Origin: Rheinheimera sp.
Lineage (GTDB): Bacteria; Pseudomonadota; Gammaproteobacteria; Enterobacterales; Alteromonadaceae
Assembly (NCBI RefSeq): GCF_020217005.1
Contig: NZ_JAIWOI010000058.1
Span: forward strand, 1 to 10,000
DNA: 10,000 nucleotides
Direction of reading: 5' to 3'
Positions 1,643-8,275 of this stretch are shown here, piece after piece. The notes below the pieces were generated by a model, which saw only the letters and a list, made by a program, of their open reading frames with translations, was not told where the DNA came from and made no database searches. The position numbers and the translations under genes are program-made. Position 1 is the stretch's first letter. The number at the start of each line of letters is the position of its first letter.

Positions 1643-1855
1643 ATGTTAAGTATCCAGATCGACAATCCAGAACTGGAAGCCGAATTAAAACAGGCATTTG
1701 GCAGTAATCCGCAGTCTGTAGTTAAAGCTTTTGCAGACTTTGTACAGGCAAGAAGATTAGCCGACGATATTCAAACTTCGATAGCAGAGTTAGAGCAAGA
1801 CAAGGCACTCAAATCCGCTGACGTGTTTACATCTATTCGTGCAAGGTATGAGTGA
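1643..1855 (+). CDS. Antitoxin of a ParE/RelE-type toxin-antitoxin pair
   Basis: This 70-residue acidic protein is placed directly before, and overlapping, a ParE/RelE-type toxin gene, the usual antitoxin position. It starts MLSIQIDNPELEAELKQAF, a short beta strand followed by a helix, as in ribbon-helix-helix-like or Phd-like N-terminal DNA-binding parts. It ends with the charged tail DVFTSIRARYE, which would wrap the toxin. A strong Shine-Dalgarno (AGGTGGAG, 1628-1635) lies 7 nt before the ATG. Its stop codon overlaps the toxin start in ATGAGTGA, so the two are translationally coupled. Antitoxin-toxin complexes of this class usually repress their own operon. The antitoxin subfamily is not firmly recognised; the call rests on size, order and partner. 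Confidence 0.8.
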   Translation: MLSIQIDNPELEAELKQAFGSNPQSVVKAFADFVQARRLADDIQTSIAELEQDKALKSADVFTSIRARYE

Positions 1856-2135
1856 CTTACAACTGGTTTTTTCGCCACGCGCAAAAGAGCGTTTATTGCA
1901 AATTGCTGAATACCTCTCTGGTCAAGGGCTAGAAAATGCCTTTGTTATTGAATACCTGAATCAGTTTGAATTGTGGTTAAATAAAGTTCTGCTCGAGTTT
2001 CCTGAATCAGGTATTGAACTTCCAGAATATGGACCAGGGATAAGAAAGGTCTGTTACAAGAAGTACAGCTTTGTTTACCGCGTTACGTCCTCTCAAATAG
2101 AAATTCTGACCGTTTTTCGCGACAACCTGCCTTAA
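1848..2135 (+). CDS. ParE/RelE-family toxin
   Basis: This 95-residue protein has the ParE/RelE fold signature. The N-terminal strand plus helix (LQLVFSPRAKERLLQIAEYL) is followed by a central helical stretch and then the C-terminal strands RKVCYKKYSFVYRV and QIEILTVFRDNLP. Family members either inhibit DNA gyrase (ParE) or cleave mRNA on the ribosome (RelE). The C-terminal form looks more ParE-like, but the target cannot be decided here. The ATG at 1848 is chosen because it overlaps the antitoxin stop by 8 nt; a GTG at 1839 would add three residues. The stop lies inside a hairpin (2134-2177). Confidence 0.85.
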   Translation: MSDLQLVFSPRAKERLLQIAEYLSGQGLENAFVIEYLNQFELWLNKVLLEFPESGIELPEYGPGIRKVCYKKYSFVYRVTSSQIEILTVFRDNLP

Positions 2136-2578: not shown

Positions 2579-3001
2579 ATGAAATTGAATAAAAAAGCAA
2601 TAATAAATAAGTTGTTACTATTGGGTGGTTGGGTATTTTGGATATATCTAATTACTACAGCATTTGTGTATGTATTGAAACCATATACGCAAATTGAATG
2701 CTACAACGAAGTAACTCAACGTTCTGAATCTCCAGAGAAAAACAAGATCGCTGAGGTGAGAATTAGGGATTGCGTGGGTGGCACATCAGATTATTTTGGA
2801 ACAGTGAGTCTAAGCGACAAGAACTCACCTGAAGAAAGCACAGTCGTTTTTGAGTTTAACGGAACACCAGATGAAAGCGGGTTGAGTATTGAATGGGAAT
2901 CAAAAGATACGCTTTTAGTGAAGATGAAGACAATTAAAAAGGCGAACCGATTAGTTCGCTACGGTAACGACGTAAAAGTGAAATTTGAAATTACAAAATA
3001 G
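2579..3001 (+). CDS. Hypothetical membrane-anchored protein
   Basis: This 140-residue protein has one N-terminal membrane segment at about residues 11-33 (LLLLGGWVFWIYLITTAFVY) after a lysine-rich start, so the rest probably lies in the periplasm. The outer part has two cysteines (in IECYNEV and IRDCVGG) that could form a disulfide. Beta-type strands end in GLSIEWESKDTLLVKM and VKVKFEITK. This layout resembles small anchored beta-sandwich proteins such as the DUF5412 type, but I do not claim membership. The Shine-Dalgarno AAAGGA (2572-2577) is very close to the ATG at 2579 and better placed for the TTG at 2585, so the product may start two residues later. The gene at 3012 follows within 10 bp. 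Base use is AT-rich compared with the flanks. Confidence 0.7.
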   Translation: MKLNKKAIINKLLLLGGWVFWIYLITTAFVYVLKPYTQIECYNEVTQRSESPEKNKIAEVRIRDCVGGTSDYFGTVSLSDKNSPEESTVVFEFNGTPDESGLSIEWESKDTLLVKMKTIKKANRLVRYGNDVKVKFEITK

Positions 3002-3265: not shown

Positions 3266-3490
3266 GGGTCAGGTCTAGCATCTTGCTCCACACCACAAAG
3301 GAAAAATATGTTAGCTGTTTTCTGTGAGCTTTTTCGTTTTTACTTTTATTAAAGCATTGAAATTGAATCAACTAATTATCTCGGGGCAAAGGGCAAGATC
3401 TGACACCATTAATTGTTTGCGGGGGCAAAGGGCAAGATCTGACACCATTAATTGTTTGCGGCCTTATTTTAAGGACGTGGTCAGGTGCCT
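3266..3490. mobile_element. Repeat-rich segment, possible non-coding mobile element remnant
   Basis: This segment lies between the gene fragment ending near 3262 and the cassette gene ending at 3491 and has no credible gene. Related GTCAGRTC-type motifs recur: GGTCAGGTCTAGCATCTTGC near its left end, two inverted forms GGGCAAGATCTGAC in the tandem repeat, and GGTCAGGTGCC at its right end (3479-3489). From memory, similar GGTCAGATCTTGC-like sequences flank small Y1/REP-associated transposases in gammaproteobacteria; no transposase is present here. The segment stands where an attC for the 3491-3838 cassette would be expected. Confidence 0.35.
3383..3461. repeat. Perfect 39-bp tandem duplication
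   Basis: Two identical 39-bp copies (3383-3421 and 3422-3460, plus one matching base at 3461) begin GGGGCAAAGGGCAAGATCTG and end AATTGTTTGCG. The match ends abruptly at both sides. Because 39 is a multiple of three, a + strand frame through it repeats 13 residues, but that frame is not credible as a gene. Confidence 0.95.
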
Positions 3491-3838
3491 TTACCCAATT
3501 TTTGCTAGTGCTTCTTGAGCCGCTACCATAACAACTTTCCATTTAGCATCTTTCAATAGCTCATCAATAGATTGATTCTCGCTATCAATATTTCGCTCAA
3601 AAAGTTTTGTAAACTCCCAGAGGATTAATTTCTCATCCGCCGTAACGCTTTCAGATATTAAACCAGACCCTTTAGGTAAGGAGTCCATAACTAAATCATC
3701 AAACCACCAACAAACAAATTCGCTTTTATAGTCATTGTATTCAACTTTTGATGCAAATTCTCTCTGTCTCGGCGGAGACGATAAAAAGCTCAAAATTTCT
3801 AGGCACGAATTTCTGAATTTCGAGGCAGTACTGTCCAT
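3491..3838 (-). CDS. Integron cassette gene, unknown function
   Basis: This 115-residue, probably cytoplasmic protein starts MDSTASKFRNSCLEILSFLS. It has an aromatic core (EFVCWWFDDLVMDSL), an acidic middle and a helical C-terminal stretch KWKVVMVAAQEALAKIG. No catalytic motif or membrane segment is visible and I do not recognise the family. The ATG lies only 4 bp after the attC site at 3843-3918 in transcription direction, the normal layout of an integron cassette, and there is no separate promoter. Its own attC should follow the stop at 3491, but a repeat-rich segment is found there instead. GC content is lower than in the flanking kef genes. Confidence 0.75.
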   Translation of the reverse strand: MDSTASKFRNSCLEILSFLSSPPRQREFASKVEYNDYKSEFVCWWFDDLVMDSLPKGSGLISESVTADEKLILWEFTKLFERNIDSENQSIDELLKDAKWKVVMVAAQEALAKIG

Positions 3839-3842
3839 AGTT

Positions 3843-3918
3843 ACCTAACGTTTGGTTAAGGGGCGGGCTTTACCCCGTCCCAGTGAGCGAAGTGAACGAT
3901 TTGAACCACTTGTTAGCC
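3843..3918 (-). other. attC recombination site, near-canonical
   Basis: Read on the minus strand, the site starts with R'' GGCTAAC and ends with R' GTTAGGT, which fits GTTRRRY. Inside, the L'' arm TGGTTCAA pairs with the L' arm TTAACCA with one unpaired base, the asymmetry that integron integrases use to choose strand. The centre (GGGACGGGG / CCCGCCCC and TTCACTTCGCTCA) can fold further. The 76-bp length is typical. The stop codon of the gene at 3913 lies within R''. Confidence 0.9.
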
Positions 3919-4458
3919 GTAATGCTGGATTTCGCCAAAATACCACTGCTCAGAAACATATGGATTTCCATCATCATCTTCGTCAGTACGCAGAACTCCA
4001 AGCTCACTAAAGCCCTCCGGTAGTGCTAGACCTAATTCTTGGGCAAGACTTTGTCCTTGGATTTTTTCAATTTTCCCGAAGCGTCCAGTTTGTTCCGTTG
4101 TGTGCTCTTTGAAATATTGTTCACTTGTATAAATACACAGTTCGCTAGAGAACATACAGGGCAGTGAAATAACGCATGTGACTCTAAAGCACTCAGCGTA
4201 TTGTGGTTTGGCTTTGTATATATGGTATGCGGCATCTATAAGTTGCTGTGCACAAAATGCTTGTATGCTCTTGGTGGTTTGCTTACCCTCAACAAGATTT
4301 CGATACACAGGAATTTTATAGTTCCAGTACTTTTCCTCTGACGTTATCTGGAGTGGAAAATATCCTGAAAGCGACTCTTTCCAACGCGCGAGTGCGCGTA
4401 AACGACGTGGTATGCCACGAAGCTTTTTGTTGCTAAACGAAGATCTGCCTGCTGTCAT
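3913..4458 (-). CDS. Integron cassette gene, DUF3916-like protein
   Basis: This is a 181-residue soluble protein. The N-terminus is basic (KKLRGIPRRLRALARWKESL, residues 11-30), followed by EEKYWNYKIPVYRNLVEGKQ (41-60), a helix with CAQQLIDAAYHIYKAKP, and the strand-rich RVTCVISLPCMFSSELCIYT (92-111). It ends in an acidic loop (RTDEDDDGNPYVSEQWYFGE). From memory this pattern fits the DUF3916 family, whose function is unknown; the match is not verified. The ATG lies 7 bp after R' of the attC at 4466-4525, and the stop is inside the next attC, so this is a complete cassette. It has no promoter of its own, so expression would depend on an upstream promoter. Confidence 0.8.
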   Translation of the reverse strand: MTAGRSSFSNKKLRGIPRRLRALARWKESLSGYFPLQITSEEKYWNYKIPVYRNLVEGKQTTKSIQAFCAQQLIDAAYHIYKAKPQYAECFRVTCVISLPCMFSSELCIYTSEQYFKEHTTEQTGRFGKIEKIQGQSLAQELGLALPEGFSELGVLRTDEDDDGNPYVSEQWYFGEIQHYG

Positions 4459-4465
4459 AAAGTAC

Positions 4466-4525
4466 GGCTAACGCTGCTAGCCGCAGCCAGCGCTGTTTGC
4501 TGGCGATAAAATTTGTTTGTTATAA
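4466..4525 (-). other. attC recombination site, degenerate arms
   Basis: On the minus strand it begins TTATAAC immediately after the stop of the upstream cassette gene and ends GTTAGCC (4466-4472), with 60 bp in total. The centre folds as GCCAGC/GCTGGC. The outer L arms pair poorly, so this is a weaker attC than its neighbour, but its place exactly between two cassette genes supports it. Confidence 0.65.
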
Positions 4526-4526
4526 A

Positions 4527-4949
4527 TCACCTTTCGATTAACCAATATACTATCGCAGCAAATGGGACAACAATAATACAAAAAGTTAACAGTCCTACGC
4601 TCGTTTGGAGAGCAGTGTTAACTAAGGCATCACCGCCTATAAAGTAATTAAAGGCCATAGCAAAAACTATAACTGAGACTACACAAGAGCAAATACCAGA
4701 AATTAACAATTTAAGCACTATCGTAGTATTTAATTTTTGAAAGACTATCCTGAATACCGTATAACCAAAAATTGAAGTACAAATAGCCACGCCAACAGCG
4801 AAAAATAACGAAAAGAATAAAATAGGTAACAAAGCTAATGTCATTTCACTTTGGATGGTGGCAACCACAATAGTAGCGGCAATAAAAGCCATCCAGTAGC
4901 CAGCAATCGCTGAAACAACGTAGGTAGAAAATTTAGGCTCAATTTGCAT
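4527..4949 (-). CDS. Integron cassette gene, four-helix membrane protein
   Basis: This 140-residue integral membrane protein has four hydrophobic segments at about 9-31, 38-66, 77-101 and 112-137. Polar turns separate them (TIQSEMT, FQKLNTT, GGDALVNTALQTS), and it ends WLIER. No known transporter or enzyme motif is seen and the family is not recognised. The frame is open 44 codons further upstream, but that part runs through the attC at 4954-5010 and into the preceding cassette gene. The ATG at 4947-4949, just after the attC R' box, is therefore the proper start (MQIEPKFSTYVV). There is almost no leader and no Shine-Dalgarno, as is common for cassette genes. The stop touches the next attC, so the cassette is complete. 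Confidence 0.75.
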   Translation of the reverse strand: MQIEPKFSTYVVSAIAGYWMAFIAATIVVATIQSEMTLALLPILFFSLFFAVGVAICTSIFGYTVFRIVFQKLNTTIVLKLLISGICSCVVSVIVFAMAFNYFIGGDALVNTALQTSVGLLTFCIIVVPFAAIVYWLIER

Positions 4950-4953
4950 ATAA

Positions 4954-5010
4954 GTTATAACGCCCGCAATAGCCGAGAGCGAAGCGAATCGGTTGTTTGT
5001 GCTTGTTATG
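4954..5010 (-). other. attC recombination site
   Basis: On the minus strand CATAAC (R'') begins just after the stop of the gene at 5014 and the site ends GTTATAAC (R', 4954-4961), 57 bp in all. A central hairpin CCGA-TTCGCTTCGCTC-TCGG is present, and the flanking arms ACAACCGA and TCGGCTATTG pair with an unpaired base. Spacing, core boxes and position between two genes support attC. Confidence 0.75.
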
Positions 5011-5013
5011 TTT

Positions 5014-5361
5014 TTACCAATTCTCGTCATAATAGAAGGGTAATTTTGGAGAATCAAAATCACCCTCCCCATATTTCGCATCTATGTGCGCTGGCAGCAT
5101 ATTCCGCATCTTTTCGTGAATAGATGTGTGTAACAATTTAAATCCAGCGTGCTCATTGATCGAGATCGAACCCAGAAACCGTTCGATATCTTCAATATTT
5201 TTGTAATGCAATGGCTGATGAAAGAACCTTTGATATTCTTGTAAGGTCGAGAAAACGTACATCAAGTCTTTTAAATTGACCTCAACTTTCTCATCAGGAT
5301 CGATTGCCTCAAAACCGAAGGTAACAATCTCTTCCAAATTGTCAGTGTACTCTTTAGTCAC
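5014..5361 (-). CDS. Integron cassette gene, unknown function
   Basis: This 115-residue acidic soluble protein is encoded by the first cassette in reading direction. It starts with GTG (MTKEYTDNLEEIVTFGF) behind GGGG at about 7-nt spacing. Predicted helices include VNLKDLMYVFSTLQEYQRFF and the stretch NIEDIERFLGSI; the C-terminus is aromatic and acidic (LPFYYDENW). No motif or family is recognised. The stop codon is followed within 3 bp by the attC at 4954-5010. Upstream, a core-like ACATAAC (5377-5383) could be the cassette junction. Base use is AT-rich compared with the flanking kef genes. Confidence 0.72.
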   Translation of the reverse strand: MTKEYTDNLEEIVTFGFEAIDPDEKVEVNLKDLMYVFSTLQEYQRFFHQPLHYKNIEDIERFLGSISINEHAGFKLLHTSIHEKMRNMLPAHIDAKYGEGDFDSPKLPFYYDENW

Positions 5362-5376
5362 TTACTACCCCACGAA

Positions 5377-5443
5377 ACATAACATTTCTATATTGTGCCG
5401 GCACGCTTTCTCTGGTTCTACCAGATGACACACCAGTGTTAAC
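5377..5443 (-). other. Candidate cassette junction or decayed attC/attI
   Basis: GTTATGT on the minus strand (5377-5383) lies where the R' box of the first cassette is expected, and GTTAAC (5438-5443) could be the opposite box. Between them are the hairpin TCTGGT-AGA-ACCAGA and the palindrome TGTGCCGGCACA (5394-5405), but no convincing L'/L'' arms. It may be an attI-like or degenerate site. Confidence 0.3.
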
Positions 5444-5445
5444 TT

Positions 5446-5473
5446 ATTGATAAAAACAATTAATTACAGTCAA
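5446..5473 (-). promoter_or_regulatory. Possible promoter reading into the cassette array
   Basis: On the minus strand TTGACT (5468-5473) matches the -35 consensus at five of six positions. ATCAAT (5446-5451) with a 16-bp spacer is a poor -10 box. It points at the GTG of the first cassette gene, so it could act as the array promoter. Confidence 0.28.
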
Positions 5474-5546
5474 CTACGGCAAGACGAGACCCAAAGCGTG
5501 CTGGCACATTATTACTTTTCTCTGGCCTGTTATTTTTAGGTTGGGC

Positions 5547-5580
5547 CACTCTAAGTATCTAAATTAGAGTGTTTTTTCTT
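5547..5580 (+). terminator. Rho-independent terminator on + strand
   Basis: CACTCTAA (5547-5554) pairs perfectly with TTAGAGTG (5564-5571) over a 9-nt loop and is followed directly by TTTTTTCTTTTT. It is a strong terminator shape for + strand transcription, but no + strand gene lies upstream within 2 kb, so it may belong to a gene lost when the array was built or to an unseen small RNA. Confidence 0.75.
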
Positions 5581-5614
5581 TTTCAGCAACAGATAAATGT
5601 GCCTGTTGGTTTGC

Positions 5615-5852
5615 TCAAAGCGTGCCTGTTTTTTTTGATGACAGCCAATAACACTGTGTATTCGCCAAGTAGTAGAAGCAATATCCGCTTTTGTCTAAAG
5701 TGACGATAGAGCTAACCTCTCGATACCACCAGCCAGCAGACTCAACCCATCTAGCTATTTTTCAGGCAAATCCGCTCTGAGGCACATAGCTTTGCATCAC
5801 TTGCAATGCCGCTTTATTTCTGTCACACCCTTGCCAGAGCCTGATCGTTCAT
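5615..5852 (-). pseudogene. Decayed small gene, unknown family
   Basis: A minus-strand frame reads LWQGCDRNKAALQVMQSYV..SGFA, then an in-frame TGA (5762-5764), then KIARWVESAGWWYREVSSIV, TLDKSGYCFYYLANTQCYWL and a stop at 5615-5617. The residue pattern on both sides of the TGA is strongly protein-like. An ATG at 5850-5852 lies in another frame (MNDQAL) and would join the first part after the loss of one base. So one frameshift and one stop appear to have broken an about 80-residue gene. The family is not recognised. It is divergent from kefF, and the kefF promoter should lie in or next to its 5' end. Confidence 0.45.
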
Positions 5853-5893
5853 AAACACTATAGCCACTGTTTTTAAAGGACTATCGGCGCTTT

Positions 5894-6427
5894 ATGATTA
5901 GTTTGTTATATGCCCATCCTTATGCCCGCCATGCCAGGTTGGAGCAAATGATGCTTAATGCAGTGCAGCATTGGCCCGGGCTTGAGCTGCGCGATTTGTA
6001 TCAGCTGTACCCTGATTTTTATATTGATGTTGCACTGGAGCAAAAGATGCTGGCCCACAGTAAGGCCATCGTTTTGCATTACCCCATGCAGTGGGGCTTG
6101 CCGCCGGCTTTATTAGTGCAGTACCTGCACAAGGTGTTTCAGTATGGCTGGGCCTACGGTAAAGCTGCCTCTGGTGAGTCTGTGATGTCGCTGCAGGGAA
6201 AAAAATTCTGGTTAGTCACACACGCAGTAGCGCCACAGCATGAATTGGACCCTTGTTATCAGCAGACTATGTTCACGCCTTTGCGCCAACTGGCTTTATC
6301 TTGTGGCATGGAATGGCAACACCCTCTGATGCTGCCTGAATTAACCGACAGCACTATTGCCACAGAGGCCGCCGAATTATTCCGCTCCGGGCTGGAGCAA
6401 CTTTCTGCGGCCATAACGCTGGACTAA
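5894..6427 (+). CDS. kefF: KefF-like ancillary flavoprotein of the KefC potassium efflux system
   Basis: This 177-residue flavodoxin-fold NAD(P)H:quinone oxidoreductase (NQO1-like) binds FMN and activates the membrane antiporter KefC at the cytoplasmic face. Family marks are the N-terminal LLYAHPYARHARLEQ, the LYQLYPDFYIDVALEQ segment, and HYPMQWGLPPALLVQYLHKV followed by YGWAYG. Length and order agree with Escherichia coli KefF (about 176 residues). It is followed 24 bp later by the antiporter gene, as in the kefFC operon. AAGGA (5876-5880) is about 13 nt before the ATG, rather far, but no better start exists. The match to KefF rather than KefG is inferred from residues and from the partner; the two are close relatives. 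Confidence 0.88.
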   Translation: MISLLYAHPYARHARLEQMMLNAVQHWPGLELRDLYQLYPDFYIDVALEQKMLAHSKAIVLHYPMQWGLPPALLVQYLHKVFQYGWAYGKAASGESVMSLQGKKFWLVTHAVAPQHELDPCYQQTMFTPLRQLALSCGMEWQHPLMLPELTDSTIATEAAELFRSGLEQLSAAITLD

Positions 6428-6451
6428 CAAAGCAGCGATAAAGGACTGATT

Positions 6452-8275
6452 ATGCATCTTAACGTTCTGACTTATTTAATGATTTACCTGGCAGCTATGG
6501 TGCTGGTAGTGCCTTTAGCCAAGCGCTTTGGCCTTGGCGTCGTGCTGGGGTATTTATTAGCTGGTATAGCGCTGGGCCCGGCAGGTTTTGCTATTGCCAG
6601 TAATACCGACGACATTAAGTTGCTGGCTGAGCTGGGGGTGGTGCTGATGTTATTCAGTATAGGCCTGGAGCTGGATGCAAAAAAACTCTGGGCCATGCGG
6701 CACAGAGTCTTTCTGTTTGGCTCATTGCAGGTGCTGGTCTGTGCTTTGGGCATAGGCCTGGCCACCAGTGTGCTGGGGTTATCTTACGCTTTGTCGGTAT
6801 TTATCGGTCTGGCTTTGGCTTTGTCGTCCACTGCTGTGGCTGTGCAACTGATGAAAGATCGTAATTTAATGGGCACTCACACCGGGCAATCTGTGTTTGG
6901 CGCCTTGTTACTGCAAGACATGGTGGCTATTCCACTGTTGATTGGTGTCAGTTTACTAGCGCCTTCGGCCGATACAGCTGAATTTAAAGCCTTGCCTGCT
7001 TTGGCTGCTGTAGTGGCCCTGGTATTAGCGGGGCGCTACCTGATAGGGTATTTATTGCACTGGGTTGCTCATCACGGCTCCCGCGAGCTTTTTGTCGGGC
7101 TGGCCTTATTGCTGGTGATAGGGGTGATGGAGCTGATGACAGCTGTTGGTGTATCTGCGGGTTTAGGTGCTTTTATTGCGGGTGTGCTGTTGGCAAGCTC
7201 TGAGTTCCGTCATCAGTTGGAGGCCGACCTGGAACCCTTTAAAGGACTGTTTTTAGGGCTGTTTTTTATCACTATTGGCGCCAGTATCGATATGCAGCTG
7301 TTAAGCACAGAATGGCAACTAATTAGCCTTTTGCTGCTGTTATTTGTCGGGTTAAAACTCTTGCTGTTGTATGGCGTGGCGTGGGTGTTAAAGATTGCCG
7401 CGCCTGAGCGTTTGAGCTATGCCATCTTGCTGGGGCAAGGCAGTGAATTTGCTTTTGTGTTGGCGGCTTTGGCAACTGCAGGGGCTCTACTTAGTGCCAC
7501 AGAAGGCGCCATGCTGAATTTGTTAATTGCCTTGTCTATTGCCGTATCGCCTTTATTGATGAAGCTGCTGGACGTCTGGGCCGTGCGCCAGCAAAACCAG
7601 CAGCCGCAACAGGGATCTGATGTAGAGAATAGCGAAAGCCCGGTCATTATTGCCGGTTTTGGCCGTTACGGTCAGATTTTAGGCCGTCTGTTATTGTCCA
7701 ACGGCATAGTGCCCACAGTGCTTGATCACGACTCTGACACTATTCAAACCATGACGAAGTTTGGCTTTAAGGTGTATTACGGCGACGCCAGCCGGATGGA
7801 CGTGCTGGAGGCTGCTGGTGCTGCGCATGCCAAAATTCTGGTGATTGCGGTAGACGATGTACAGGCGATTAACGCCATTGTCAGCAATGCCAAACAACAT
7901 TTCCCGCATTTAAAACTGATGGCCAGGGCCAAAGATGTGGCCCATATGTATCAGTTACGTCAGTTGGGTGTAGAGCATATAGAGCGTGAACTCTTTGAGG
8001 CTTCGTTACGTCAGGGCAGGGATGTATTAACTCAACTTGGCATGGGCCGCTACGAAGCCAAAGAACTGGCCGACCGTTTCAGAGCCGCCAATTACCAGCT
8101 GATCGATAAAATGCAGCTGGTGCGTCAGCAACAAGACGAAAAAAGCTATATACAGTTGTTAAAACAAAGCAGGGAAGAGCTGCAACGCCAGTTGGAACGT
8201 GAAAGCCGGGATGCGCCTAAGCGTTATCAGGGGCTATACACAGAGCCTGAAGCGGATAAAAACGACCTCAAATAA
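6452..8275 (+). CDS. kefC: Glutathione-regulated potassium efflux antiporter KefC/KefB
   Basis: This 607-residue CPA2-type K+/H+ antiporter of the inner membrane is opened by glutathione adducts during electrophile stress and closed by free glutathione. The N-terminal part (about 1-375) has 12 or so membrane segments. It holds the conserved LLLQDMVAIPLL with Asp156 and the regulatory loop HQLEADLEPFKG (254-265), the counterpart of the E. coli KefC HALESD loop. From about 397 a soluble RCK/KTN domain follows with the nucleotide-binding GFGRYG (402-407) and acidic D425. The last 50 residues are charged and helical. The Shine-Dalgarno AAAGGA (6440-6445) is well spaced. It is cotranscribed with kefF; KefC is preferred to KefB because of that partner, but the two are hard to separate by eye. 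Confidence 0.9.
   Translation: MHLNVLTYLMIYLAAMVLVVPLAKRFGLGVVLGYLLAGIALGPAGFAIASNTDDIKLLAELGVVLMLFSIGLELDAKKLWAMRHRVFLFGSLQVLVCALGIGLATSVLGLSYALSVFIGLALALSSTAVAVQLMKDRNLMGTHTGQSVFGALLLQDMVAIPLLIGVSLLAPSADTAEFKALPALAAVVALVLAGRYLIGYLLHWVAHHGSRELFVGLALLLVIGVMELMTAVGVSAGLGAFIAGVLLASSEFRHQLEADLEPFKGLFLGLFFITIGASIDMQLLSTEWQLISLLLLLFVGLKLLLLYGVAWVLKIAAPERLSYAILLGQGSEFAFVLAALATAGALLSATEGAMLNLLIALSIAVSPLLMKLLDVWAVRQQNQQPQQGSDVENSESPVIIAGFGRYGQILGRLLLSNGIVPTVLDHDSDTIQTMTKFGFKVYYGDASRMDVLEAAGAAHAKILVIAVDDVQAINAIVSNAKQHFPHLKLMARAKDVAHMYQLRQLGVEHIERELFEASLRQGRDVLTQLGMGRYEAKELADRFRAANYQLIDKMQLVRQQQDEKSYIQLLKQSREELQRQLERESRDAPKRYQGLYTEPEADKNDLK

Follow-up and report, generated by a model that had tools for sequence, protein, structure and literature searches.

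The window analysed here is a stretch of 10,000 nucleotides of Rheinheimera sp. DNA (positions 1 to 10,000 of contig NZ_JAIWOI010000058.1, which is contig C123 of a 3.92-Mb draft genome in 379 contigs). It carries an array of four minus-strand genes separated by three attC sites and headed by a non-coding leader that ends in an attI-like core. Comparison with related genomes makes it likely that dispersed, integrase-less attI platforms exist in this genus and are loaded in trans, and that the window array was built on one such attI copy. The features of the array, in the direction in which it is read, are as follows.

5380-5708, minus strand: non-coding leader of 329 bp, read from 5708 to 5380; putative intI-less attI platform and member of a dispersed repeat family
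5380-5398, minus strand: attI core GCACAATATAGAAATGTTA, located by pattern scan, with crossover at G^TTA; the alignment with a cassette of genome G015 begins here with GTTATG
5390-5409 and 5493-5512, no strand: inverted repeat arms inside the leader, 90% complementary; the motif is present in intI-linked copies
5014-5361, minus strand: cassette gene 1, an open reading frame (ORF) of 115 aa with no family match
4955-5011, minus strand: attC of cassette 1, 29.3 bits, E 1.4e-5; R'' box ACATAAC complements the attI core GTTATGT
4527-4949, minus strand: cassette gene 2, encoding a protein of 140 aa that looks hydrophobic by eye; no family match
4466-4525, minus strand: attC of cassette 2, 11.4 bits, E 0.25 (weak); R'' box TTATAAC complements the core GTTATAA
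3913-4458, minus strand: cassette gene 3, a DUF3916 protein of 181 aa (PF13079, E 5.3e-34)
3843-3918, minus strand: attC of cassette 3, 42.2 bits, E 1.1e-8; R'' box GGCTAAC complements the core GTTAGCC
3491-3838, minus strand: gene 4, last of the array, 115 aa, with a weak match to the SCO4402 family (NF047838, E 7.1e-6, 26.2 bits against a cut-off of 50)
3383-3460, no strand: two perfect tandem repeats of 39 bp beside the distal array end

The cassette array

A sequence-only reading of the window had proposed four genes in one direction with attC sites between them, and the genes are all found on the minus strand, three as listed ORFs and gene 2 with a reset start (the ATG at 4949 behind the attC site was chosen, the ORF list starting at the upstream ATG at 5081). 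The three attC sites are the top three of nine matches, all on the minus strand, returned in the window by an attC covariance model, the next match scoring 9.0 bits; their boxes are exact complements, and one proposed position, 4954-5010, was off by a single base. The model's training set comprised 26 attC sites of first cassettes at other loci, with none from the window (one of the 26, from L115, looks to be a relative of the 3843 site), and filters were off when the window was searched; the model was built because a hand-made attC arm-pairing score failed to separate the sites from dinucleotide shuffles. Two of the sites are thereby well supported (E <= 1.4e-5), and the 4466 site, whose score is by itself not significant, is secured by a chain of exact complements: from the array head onward, each 7-base core exactly complements the next R'' box, three steps in succession. 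A first greedy cassette chain ran past real arrays and gave wrong attC ends in the window; it served as a lead only, and the first-attC test reported below was redone. An Rfam scan of the window gave one sub-threshold match, elsewhere than at the attC sites.

Since at least two attC sites are clustered with no intI nearby, which is the usual definition in the available extract of PMC9024848, the array is a cluster of attC sites lacking an integron integrase (CALIN), as the earlier reading had it. The integrase family TIGR02249 has no match on the window contig and none over the cut-off in this draft genome. That account was incomplete in one respect, namely the conserved attI-like head at 5380-5708, which runs past the 5443 limit set for the array and which distinguishes it from a plain CALIN in being repeated elsewhere in the genome.

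Cassette 1, at least, is a mobile cassette, because it recurs in an intI-headed array of genome G015 and because attC sites lie behind most of its relatives. A search of 390 genomes of the family with gene 1 matched five, its own included. The relative in G015 has 96% amino acid identity and is located in the intI-headed array, to which cassette 1 aligns at 399 of 427 bases (93%) from crossover point to crossover point, starting at GTTATG in the attI core at the head of the window array and stopping in the attC R' box. An attC match lies directly 3' of three of the four relatives (L269, L270, L271), and the sole attC match at the fourth (L272) is about 1.2 kb off; the notion that these genes might elsewhere always stand without attC sites thus fails for gene 1. 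Gene 3 matched two of the 390 genomes, its own included. The earlier suggestion that the cassettes came from different sources fits the unlikeness of their attC sites.

No attC site was recognised behind gene 4, where positions 3480-3486, next to a stretch rich in repeats, read ACCTGAC in place of the expected ACCTAAC; the site has been lost or is unrecognised, and the tandem repeats at 3383-3460 perhaps mark the place of the loss. Related GGTCAGGT/AGATCTGAC motifs were seen by eye over window positions 3270-3490 at this distal end, and similar ones, also by eye, in L010.

The leader and its copies

A query taken from immediately beyond the array (5450-6450) had matches at many unlinked loci of the genus, the repeat itself spanning 5380 to about 5708 and holding no gene. 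Of 22 Rheinheimera genomes, 14 have matches to the leader, with 65 match rows in all and between 1 and 8 in each genome; fragments, or two pieces of one copy, account for some of the rows. Most of the aligned copies end in sequence like GCACAATATACAAATGTTA with unrelated DNA directly after, and a few are truncated or degenerate. At three loci (L059, L074, L076) a homologue of the leader is bounded on one side by a divergent intI, some 316 bases away from the core, and on the other by the first cassette, and the leader aligns with this intI-attI interval of the linked integron over most of its length. This homology to intI-linked attI, together with the exact junction, points to the array head as an attI site. 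The inverted repeat arms within it are possible IntI or regulator sites.

A matching first attC box (an exact complement of the core's own 7-mer plus A, within 1.4 kb) stands after 55 of 76 distinct cores that have at least 900 bp downstream, a set that was fetched for likeness to the core or leader and keeps a few probable chance matches (e.g. L125, L128, L143). When cores were swapped between loci (200 swaps), a matching box was found for a mean of 4.0% and a maximum of 12.2%. Excluding the seven intI-linked cores leaves 49 of 69 with the matching box. A wider view comes from attC searches of three whole genomes, whose lists are partial in that 150 of 779, 961 and 926 first-look candidates were scored. 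Among matches at E <= 0.01, those within 7 kb of a leader, a distance picked after the matches were seen, amount to 4 of 4 in the host genome, 12 of 14 in G015 and 6 of 11 in G021; the stretches within 7 kb of a leader make up 1.8% of the genome in both G015 and G021.

Orthologous leader loci also differ in what follows the leader. At one locus common to four genomes, the left flank and leader are 72-88% alike over the aligned pieces and the right flank is 83-87% alike over about 6 kb, and the blocks between them, of roughly 0.7 to 3.3 kb, have no similarity; the shortest block belongs to the host copy (C367), whose core is degenerate. The orthologous leaders L063 and L067 are likewise followed by dissimilar blocks (about 5.0 kb and 2.3 kb). 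A third place is occupied in G015 by a leader and array block of 4.76 kb; the distance between the aligned flanks there is 120-132 bp in G004, G002 and the host genome, about 610 bp in G014, and 4.9 kb, with a leader remnant, in G021. As to a target duplication, the flanks of one empty site were too diverged for the ends to be placed. Within one leader-headed array of G015 (L061, about 6450-7800) a reverse-transcriptase-like gene and a group II intron end were seen by eye.

A parallel set of leaders occurs in Idiomarinaceae, with the same core and a leader of similar length but other sequence. The attI core pattern, with at most one mismatch, was found in 52 of 395 family genomes and in 5 of 52 genera, one of these genera with a single isolated match; the same pattern read backward as a control gave one match. 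An exact core scan of titled genomes returned 58 stretches, mainly from Rheinheimera, Idiomarina, Pseudidiomarina and Aliidiomarina, with two in Celerinatantimonas and several that are likely chance matches. The two from Celerinatantimonas diazotrophica (L146, L163) are copies of a third leader type with the same attI core end, and at L163 a matching first attC box follows the core. Among the matches listed for Idiomarinaceae, many leader pairs cease matching about 345-355 bp from the core, with up to 99% identity. In Pseudidiomarina atlantica (contig12; L122, 4700-6560), the first cassette of an intI-headed array is succeeded by a second, complete attI leader, which has a cassette of its own.

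Integrase genes and the assembly of the array

Integrons are typically described with one attI next to intI. The leaders depart from this arrangement: leader rows stand beside an intI over the cut-off in 5 of 65 cases (G002, G010, G012, G014, G015), with at most one leader-adjacent intI per leader-bearing genome. Of 71 cores from Rheinheimera and Idiomarinaceae that have 1.4 kb or more of upstream sequence, chosen like the 76 above for likeness to the core or leader, 7 have a divergent intI match within 1.5 kb, one of these matches being partial. An intI above the family cut-off was found in 18 of 52 leader- or core-bearing genomes, 7 of 38 outside Rheinheimera (these 52 are the core-bearing genomes less G208, which has one isolated match, plus G008, which has a leader match and no core). 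No intI lies beside the attI of the window array. The host genome retains one C-terminal integron-integrase fragment, on contig C129, the weaker matches being taken for XerC/XerD. The fragment (7612-7782, L001) adjoins a 413-aa recombinase-like gene, as if the gene had been cut by another element. Three other intI genes, from three Rheinheimera genomes, that lie apart from a leader (G001:C60, G002:C15, G012:C41) have one TGA stop near profile position 265, which may be damage common to all three.

In the host genome, the locus that corresponds by orthology to the intI locus of G015, G014 and G002 lies on contig C358. It keeps the attI and both flanks and has 21 bases in place of the 1.15 kb with intI in G015; G021 has 40 bases. 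The host genome has lost intI at this locus, and because of that loss the window array is probably now frozen.

Under the preferred reading, the leader would be an integrase-less attI copy with its core at the array end, and an integron integrase encoded elsewhere would have inserted circular cassettes at its G^TTA, in an order of insertion that we infer. A promoter in the leader would express the first cassettes, and promoter-like TTGACT and TATCAA were seen in it by eye. The leader itself would have been copied to new sites.

Several results weigh against this reading. The leader has just 69-76% identity to intI-linked attI, and the expected first attC box is absent after 21 of the 76 cores. 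In G021, the attC matches away from any leader number 5 of 11 at E <= 0.01 and 9 of 16 at E <= 1, so leaderless CALINs exist as well; two attC clusters of that genome without a recognised leader (G021:C1, 2555.7-2559.4 kb and 2404.1-2404.9 kb) are either leaderless CALINs or headed by another attI type. A scan of the leader for consensus promoters and terminators found none. In nine of the 14 leader-bearing genomes no leader adjoins an intI. Six of the nine have an intI over the cut-off elsewhere (that of G001 with a stop), and the loader could instead be this integrase; the other three (the host, G016 and G021) have none over the cut-off, G021 being a single-contig genome in which leaders are nevertheless present. 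Loading in trans is deduced from sequence comparison.

Among the alternatives, an ordinary degraded integron, in which a complete integron at the window site lost its intI in situ, is improbable. Loss of intI did occur at C358 in the host genome and at the corresponding place in G021, but it is C358, and not the window locus, that is orthologous to the intI locus, so the window array does not appear to be simply a leftover at a former integrase site. Moreover, the window contig has no intI match, the leader-bearing genomes have 1 to 8 leader rows against at most one leader-adjacent intI, and in G008, where 766 bp separate kefF from the Nudix gene, the DNA between them has no match to the window.

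A reading of the leader as a miniature transposon or another kind of repeat, with an end that merely happens to suit IntI, and not as a copy of attI, is highly improbable. The Idiomarinaceae leaders provide the case for it: in addition to the shared boundary given above, they have a left-end hairpin (GTCTGCT...AGCGGAC), and a related downstream hairpin occurs at 11 of 84 cores, in 9 of the 11 directly after GTTAAYG, so that hairpins on both sides hint at a mini-transposon in that group. Against this, most of the leader's length aligns with the intI-attI interval of the linked integron, and a scan for the right end of the leader was positive in Idiomarinaceae only, with none found in Rheinheimera. 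A terminal inverted repeat at the outer edge of the Rheinheimera leader was considered and dropped, because the motif occurs without the leader throughout the genus, including in the leader-free G003. This genus-wide intergenic motif, GGTCTGCTAACG then TCGTCACTTTGTGCCAAAAGC (L217, L227, L228, L231, L242), adjoins several leaders and is also found leader-free.

We give very little credence to insertion of the cassettes at chromosomal attG-type secondary sites without a dedicated platform, a route with experimental support according to papers that cite Loot et al. (2024) and in keeping with the attC clusters of G021 that have no recognised leader, since attG sites are short and degenerate without a conserved flank and would not yield a sequence of 329 bp that is conserved across many loci and stops exactly at the crossover point.

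Returning to loading in trans, several dispersed leaders per genome in many Rheinheimera and the parallel set in Idiomarinaceae mean that one IntI could load many platforms. A broader proposal, which we hold tentatively and rate somewhat short of an even chance, is that of a distributed integron: a short mobile attI element without intI, probably with a promoter, would spread, its copies would be loaded by one integrase in trans, and it would constitute a non-autonomous satellite of the integron platform in both Rheinheimera and Idiomarinaceae. If true, this would make many CALINs live platforms, not wrecks. With several attI platforms per genome, cassettes could be loaded, and perhaps expressed, at many chromosomal places, and the leader core would be a marker that the standard tool ignores.

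Relation to known systems and neighbouring genes

The proposal gives some CALINs an origin that can be tested. CALINs are roughly as common as complete integrons (2961 vs 2760 in the extract of PMC9024848 available to us) and are ascribed, in the part of PMC11389934 consulted, to integrase loss or translocation and described there as mobilisable in trans. The window array shares attC sites, the G^TTA crossover and a homologous attI region with sedentary chromosomal integrons, and differs from them in having no adjoining integrase and in the several attI copies per genome, as against the typical one near intI. The CALINs of Xanthomonas likewise occupy conserved positions on the chromosome, apart from the intI locus, but the extract of PMC12444791 makes no mention of a shared attI leader. 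In the delta-attI gene cassettes of class 1 integrons, attI also stands outside its usual place and is functional with IntI1, as given in the portion of PMC12901181 consulted; there, however, the attI pieces belong to the cassette, whereas the window array is headed by a whole attI region. Finally, the leader resembles a miniature inverted-repeat transposable element (MITE) in being short, non-coding, dispersed and without an enzyme of its own, but paired terminal inverted repeats and a target duplication, as in MITEs, are not established for it. Among open-licence papers, no title or abstract described dispersed intI-less attI copies, which is no proof of absence.

The array is flanked by kefF on one side and, on the other, by an ORF at 2579-3001, a small ORF with a ParE-type toxin ORF, and the Nudix gene. 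PADLOC gave no match for genes 1-4 or for the 2579-3001 ORF. The ParE-family toxin ORF (PF05016) follows the small ORF at window positions 1643-2135, between the Nudix gene and the array, and the small ORF is antitoxin-like, as judged from its position alone.
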